Part shown: piece by piece, positions 15,416-17,952 of the stretch
How the letters are laid out: every line of letters begins with the position of its first letter
Numbering within the stretch: position 1 is the first letter of the stretch
DNA from: Akkermansia sp.
GTDB lineage: Bacteria; Verrucomicrobiota; Verrucomicrobiia; Verrucomicrobiales; Akkermansiaceae
DNA length: 64,000 bases
Assembly: GCF_020860705.1 (NCBI RefSeq)
Contig: NZ_JAJBTT010000019.1
Location: forward strand, 1-64,000
Reading direction: 5' to 3'
Program-made: the position numbers and the translations under genes
The notes under the pieces: model-generated
What the model was told of the DNA's origin: nothing
Database searches by the model: none
The model's input: the letters and a program-made list of their open reading frames with translations, nothing else

Positions 15416-15457
15416 CAGTTTGCTGTTTCTTGTTTGGGTTAAGCTGCCTTTATTGCA

Positions 15458-15473
15458 GCAAAAAGCGTGCCAA
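15458..15473 (-). promoter_or_regulatory. Sigma-54 (RpoN) promoter of gltB
   Basis: On the minus strand TTGGCACGCTTTTTGC matches the consensus TGGCAC-N5-TTGC. The -24 GG (15471-15470) and the -12 GC (15459-15458) are separated by exactly 10 bases. The predicted transcript start is about 15446, giving a 31-base leader to the ATG at 15415. Confidence 0.85.
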
Positions 15474-15518
15474 CTTTTTTTCAAACGCTATCGAAACTGC
15501 TCCATCACTTTCCATCGC

Positions 15519-15651
15519 CCTGTTTTACAGGCTTTTCCCACGATGTCCTTTTCCTTCCATGAGCTCAAGAAACATACTGGGAAGGGCTCGGATACCTACC
15601 TGTTTTACATTTTTGTAAGTACAGTTTTTACCTGTTTTTACATTTTTGTAA
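15519..15651. promoter_or_regulatory. Three-copy repeat between the two sigma-54 promoters (candidate activator sites)
   Basis: CCTGTTTTACA occurs at 15519 (as CCTGT-TTT-ACAGG, itself a palindrome) and at 15599. A one-base longer form, CCTGTTTTTACA, occurs at 15631. The last two sit in longer direct repeats (15597-15618 and 15629-15651), 32 bases apart, each containing TTACA-TTTT-TGTAA dyad symmetry. They lie between the divergent -24 elements, where an enhancer-binding protein would be expected. No activator gene is in the window. Confidence 0.6.
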
Positions 15652-15775
15652 CACATCTTTAGCTTCTTCATGATCCGCCCTTCCAGGAAATACTCCTCTT
15701 AAAGACGACAAACAATATTGATATTCATGTTCTTATACTTCTCCTGCACCTCTTGGAGAAGGTGATCTGAAAAAG

Positions 15776-15791
15776 TTGGCACGCTTCTTGC
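15776..15791 (+). promoter_or_regulatory. Sigma-54 (RpoN) promoter of glnN
   Basis: TTGGCACGCTTCTTGC matches TGGCAC-N5-TTGC, with GG at 15778-15779 and GC at 15790-15791 exactly 10 bases apart. The transcript would start near 15803, leaving a leader of only about 14 bases. The flanks mirror those of the gltB promoter. Confidence 0.85.
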
Positions 15792-15816
15792 TGCATAAAA
15801 GGCACAACAGTTAACC

Positions 15817-17952
<2,136 letters not shown>

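Follow-up and report, generated by a model that had tools for sequence, protein, structure and literature searches.

The gap between gltB and glnN in Akkermansia, from which the large subunit of glutamate synthase and a type III glutamine synthetase are divergently transcribed, very probably acts as one nitrogen-control switch, in which one NifA-like activator on one central enhancer would turn on both genes. The two enzymes make up the main pathway by which ammonia is captured. The gap, of 404 bp, lies in a window of 64,000 nucleotides, which is the whole stretch of DNA analysed, and its features are collected in the table below. From the sites, their conservation, their geometry, their genome-wide rarity and the gene content, we infer that sigma-54 RNA polymerase would wait at two outward -24/-12 promoters, that a NifA-like enhancer-binding protein (GAF-AAA-HTH, encoded on contig C2) would bind the central TTACA-N4-TGTAA pair and loop to either promoter, and that glutamate synthase and type III glutamine synthetase would thereby be switched on together when nitrogen is short.

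Table. Coordinates of the features of the gltB-glnN switch and of its predicted third target (window positions, except where a contig is named).
Feature	Position	Strand	Remarks
gltB, glutamate synthase large subunit, 1479 aa	10976..15415	-	Pfam GATase_2, Glu_syn_central, Glu_synthase, GXGXG; NCBIfam NF008730 above cut-off
sigma-54 promoter of gltB (TTGGCACGCTTTTTGCT)	15457..15473	-	predicted start ~15446; -24/-12 bases invariant in 10/10 orthologous loci
enhancer palindrome 1, TTACATTTTTGTAA	15605..15618		conserved 10/10; exactly 33 bp from palindrome 2
enhancer palindrome 2, TTACATTTTTGTAA	15638..15651		conserved 10/10
sigma-54 promoter of glnN (TTGGCACGCTTCTTGCT)	15776..15792	+	predicted start ~15803; -24/-12 bases invariant 10/10
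glnN, type III glutamine synthetase	15817..17952	+	ATG at 15817 or 15820; Pfam GSIII_N, Gln-synt_C, Gln-synt_C-ter
small gene, 48-50 codons	G000:C53:26574-26723 (L011 1303-1452)	-	behind exact sigma-54 promoter and palindrome pair

The two promoters face outward, each to its own gene. The gltB-side promoter reads TTGGCACGC-TTT-TTGCT on the minus strand and the glnN-side promoter reads TTGGCACGC-TTC-TTGCT on the plus strand, both with GG-N10-GC spacing, and TGGCAC-N5-TTGC is found at only these two places in the window. The mirror-image sigma-54 sites described in the sequence-only reading of this DNA are therefore real. The same reading had taken the spacing by itself as the hallmark of RpoN promoters, and this we dropped as a sufficient sign, since GG-N10-GC alone occurs 1089 times on the two strands of the window. 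The fuller pattern TGGCACGNNNNTTGCW has exactly four exact sites in the 3.07-Mb genome, where simple base counting would predict about 0.7; two of the four are at the gltB-glnN gap and two lie outside it. When one mismatch was allowed, sites as a set were no commoner in the genome than in the control (14 against 21), and for this reason only sites with other support were used. The exact site upstream of argG (L010) was taken as chance: it lies inside a short open frame, has no palindrome and was not seen in the relatives scanned. A search of the gltB-glnN gap for a sigma-70-like promoter, a terminator or an RNA element found none.

The genome also carries the rpoN gene on which the earlier reading depended, with all three of its domains (activator-interacting, core-binding and DNA-binding). 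We compared the locus in ten Akkermansia genomes with orthologous loci, the window's own included, whose GlnN proteins are at 94-100%; both promoters are intact in all ten, and the expectation that the -24/-12 bases would be invariant among relatives was borne out. Both promoters are also found in a more distant genome of the genus (L115), and another (L114) has a weaker gltB-side site. Taken together, the rpoN gene, the invariant sites, the conserved enhancer and the candidate activator strongly support the proposal that sigma-54 controls both gltB and glnN. The window GlnN matches that of L030, a publicly available Akkermansia muciniphila record, at 97%. Elsewhere the genome encodes a second type III glutamine synthetase (G000:C34:27277-29358, L129), 58% identical to the window copy; upstream of it we found no consensus sigma-54 site and no enhancer palindrome.

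Midway between the two promoters sits the TTACA-N4-TGTAA palindrome pair. The sequence-only reading mentions neither this pair nor the activator, the missing PII and AmtB or the other members of the regulon. In all ten genomes, two TTAC-N6-GTAA palindromes stand exactly 33 bp apart, and the centre of the pair lies 159-162 bp from the glnN -12 element and 167-171 bp from the gltB one. That a conserved pair is kept at nearly equal distance from both promoters suggests that one enhancer pair serves the two. The genome has three copies of the 14-bp pattern TTACANTTNNGTAA, against none in the reversed control: two are in the gltB-glnN gap and one is 127 bp before the gene of the NifA-like protein, and this upstream palindrome is kept in 10/10 genomes. 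Among the 14 sigma-54-like sites tested, TTAC-N6-GTAA palindromes are found upstream of only three, those of gltB, glnN and a small gene on contig C53. A third and weaker element, the half-site TTTTACA, is kept in part in the ten genomes; it lies at window 15520-15529, with the gltB promoter on one side and the enhancer pair on the other.

Since a palindrome alone does not name its protein, these could be the sites of a separate repressor, with the sigma-54 promoters activated through something else. Near the single palindrome that precedes the activator gene there is no sigma-54 site, so at least that palindrome may serve repression. In the gap, however, the palindromes are 160-170 bp from both promoters, as an upstream activating sequence would be, and their double copies and their presence at all three enhancer-bearing sigma-54 promoters also fit an upstream activating sequence. 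We therefore regard the repressor explanation as improbable and treat the pair as an enhancer.

Which protein would bind the enhancer is suggested by the gene content. The genome encodes only two full-strength sigma-54 activators, namely the GAF-AAA-HTH protein on contig C2 and a response regulator beside a PAS kinase on contig C44. The former has intact Walker A, GSFTGA and Walker B motifs. Among the NCBIfam models it matches TIGR01817 (NifA) best, with a score of 464.1 bits against a curated cut-off of 528.85, and as this is below the cut-off we call the protein NifA-like and do not file it as NifA. It is predicted to bind the single palindrome before its own gene, the activator gene. The gltB gene is directly upstream of it in six genomes that are more distant within the genus (G124, G132, G144, G150, G154 and G159), and the gene order in G144 is glnN-gltB-activator. 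In G132 and G144, where the activator is present, no full sigma-54 site was found before the type III glutamine synthetase gene. In G119, the gltB-glnN module is present and no close relative of the activator was found, perhaps because of an assembly gap.

The response regulator on contig C44 is the only other true sigma-54 activator in the genome, and its partner kinase carries a PAS domain, as NtrB does; both promoters might thus be activated by an NtrC-like protein in a classical NtrB/NtrC arrangement. We consider this improbable as well. Against the curated cut-offs for NtrC the protein falls short (435.7 of 558.6 and 369 of 620), and no TTAC-N6-GTAA site is found upstream of its gene. Instead, a different palindrome of the GACA-N3-TGTC type precedes its operon in the window genome and in seven of the nine relatives, the start being not locatable in the other two. 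This palindrome is present at its own operon and at dnaK, and the gltB-glnN gap has none, so that control of gltB and glnN by the NtrC-like protein is unlikely; the NifA-like protein remains our candidate. In this way each of the two true activators can be assigned a palindrome and target genes of its own.

At dnaK, a sigma-54-type site with one mismatch to the pattern lies about 100 bp before the start codon (G000:C32:54393-54408, L018). The site is also found in G047, G055 and G063, and in G144 with a differing upstream region (the promoter is also noted at loci L221, L212 and L234), and two TGACA-N2-TGTC palindromes are upstream of it in the window genome, G047, G055 and G063. To our knowledge, a chaperone under sigma-54 through a two-component system would be unusual.

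The alignment of the ten genomes shows that the gltB-glnN gap is strongly diverged except for a few islands, which are both promoters with their leaders, the two palindromes and the weaker half-site. Conserved islands in a diverged gap are what selection on a regulatory region would be expected to leave. The sequence-only reading had noted that the two promoter arms resemble each other over about 30 bases, and the arms indeed match at 32 of 35 positions in the window genome. Over 38 bp the arms are 84% alike in the window genome as against 63-68% in the other nine; what is common to all ten is the promoter consensus with its flanking A runs, and the long match is peculiar to the window genome. 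Over the same 38 bp, the mean likeness of the same arm between genomes is 0.82 for gltB and 0.83 for glnN, whereas the two arms are alike at 0.69 within a genome and at 0.67 when opposite sides of different genomes are compared. Of the two causes that had been offered for the likeness, gene conversion is thus rejected (0.69 within genomes against 0.82 between them), and selection is supported by these comparisons. The notion that the promoters form an inverted repeat, recently duplicated or gene-converted and with no common regulatory meaning, to which the close match in the window genome would lend itself, is already contradicted and hardly credible, as the arms of the other nine genomes are far less alike with each arm conserved separately, and in 10/10 genomes the gltB promoter has T and the glnN promoter has C as its third spacer base.

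The activator is further predicted to drive a third sigma-54 promoter. This promoter, on contig C53 (L011), is accompanied by a TTAC-N6-GTAA palindrome pair, is exact in 8/10 genomes and precedes a frame of about 50 residues, which starts 48 bp after the sigma-54 site in all eight. The frame changes length by whole codons, and most of its dN/dS values fall at about 0.15-0.3; we take it for a conserved gene. Only a remnant of the frame is left in G038 and G113. In G038, homology breaks off at the first palindrome, and the enhancer, the promoter and the gene start appear to have been lost together. The small protein is basic. It has no match among the Pfam and NCBIfam families, and of the other genomes searched none yielded a convincing relative. 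Its structure is predicted as two helices, with a confidence (mean pLDDT 73, pTM 0.37) too low for a search by fold. The leader of the gene contains a short hairpin, GGATC-N4-GATCC.

How the activator might sense nitrogen is suggested by what the genome lacks. In this genome, rated 100% complete, no match was found to PII (PF00543) or AmtB (PF00909), while the same searches matched 13 of 14 and 14 of 14 control genomes, respectively. As neither was found, nitrogen state would not reach NtrC or NifA along its usual path, and the GAF domain of the activator itself probably reads the signal. In our view this domain is the natural candidate for the sensor, and 2-oxoglutarate or glutamine would be its likely ligand. 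A wider and more tentative possibility is that Akkermansia runs its nitrogen assimilation without PII and AmtB through a NifA-like activator that reads nitrogen state directly, with a regulon of gltB, glnN and the small protein, and that the last tunes glutamine synthetase or glutamate synthase post-translationally.

Among the papers listed by our literature search, none was directly on sigma-54 or nitrogen control in Akkermansia. Cappable-seq data exist for A. muciniphila taken from the caecum of mice (PMC4782308). In A. muciniphila, 0.05% mucin raised the transcripts of glutamine synthetase and glutamate synthase, the glutamine synthetase concerned being unspecified (PMC8079684); this response agrees with joint control and does not prove it. 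For an important gut bacterium, the analysis maps a very small sigma-54 network almost completely from sequence. It adds a new small protein to the predicted gltB/glnN regulon, and makes the control of glutamine synthetase and glutamate synthase without PII directly testable.

The switch has a counterpart in another phylum. In the tree of GlnN, the window-type enzymes form one fully supported clade with those of Fibrobacter and of two divergent genomes of the genus, and the second Akkermansia type III enzyme stands apart from it. In Fibrobacter, gltB and glnN are likewise divergent at locus L025, where each side has its sigma-54 site, and Fibrobacter activators are 66-67% identical to the Akkermansia NifA-like protein. 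The same divergent module, the joint clade and the closeness of the activators make transfer between phyla likely, and it is likely that the control region travelled together with its genes. No such palindrome was found within 1400 bp upstream of the Fibrobacter activators; palindrome pairs are found in Fibrobacter before other type III enzymes. In L026, L028 and L029, another type III glutamine synthetase gene has two TTACAAAAATGTAA palindromes upstream, 29 bp apart, and the scan used found no recognisable sigma-54 site before it.

Among known systems, the small proteins that tune glutamine synthetase, i.e. the cyanobacterial inactivating factors and archaeal sP26, are likewise short, basic and apparently co-controlled with nitrogen genes, whereas the Akkermansia protein has no sequence family match; we presume a likeness in role, as a lead only. 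In Prevotella ruminicola, type III glutamine synthetase and glutamate synthase are clustered and co-expressed in a glnN-2/gltBD cluster, which, unlike that of Akkermansia, has PII and AmtB (PMC5552732). Neither "sigma" nor "nifA" appears as a word in the text of that paper. In the enterobacterial NtrC-sigma-54 system at glnAp2, a gene for glutamine synthetase is likewise preceded by a -24/-12 promoter and a pair of enhancer sites. It differs from the Akkermansia switch in that the enzyme is of type I rather than type III, in that Akkermansia has one central enhancer pair for two divergent promoters, and in that the Akkermansia activator is GAF-based and not a response regulator, with no PII or AmtB found. 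The sequence of the NtrC site is unlike the Akkermansia palindrome. With the NifA (TIGR01817) family the Akkermansia activator shares the GAF-AAA-HTH layout. NifA recognises the consensus TGT-N10-ACA, from which the Akkermansia palindrome differs, and the Akkermansia protein is set apart from the family by its score below the cut-off and its linkage to gltB and glnN.
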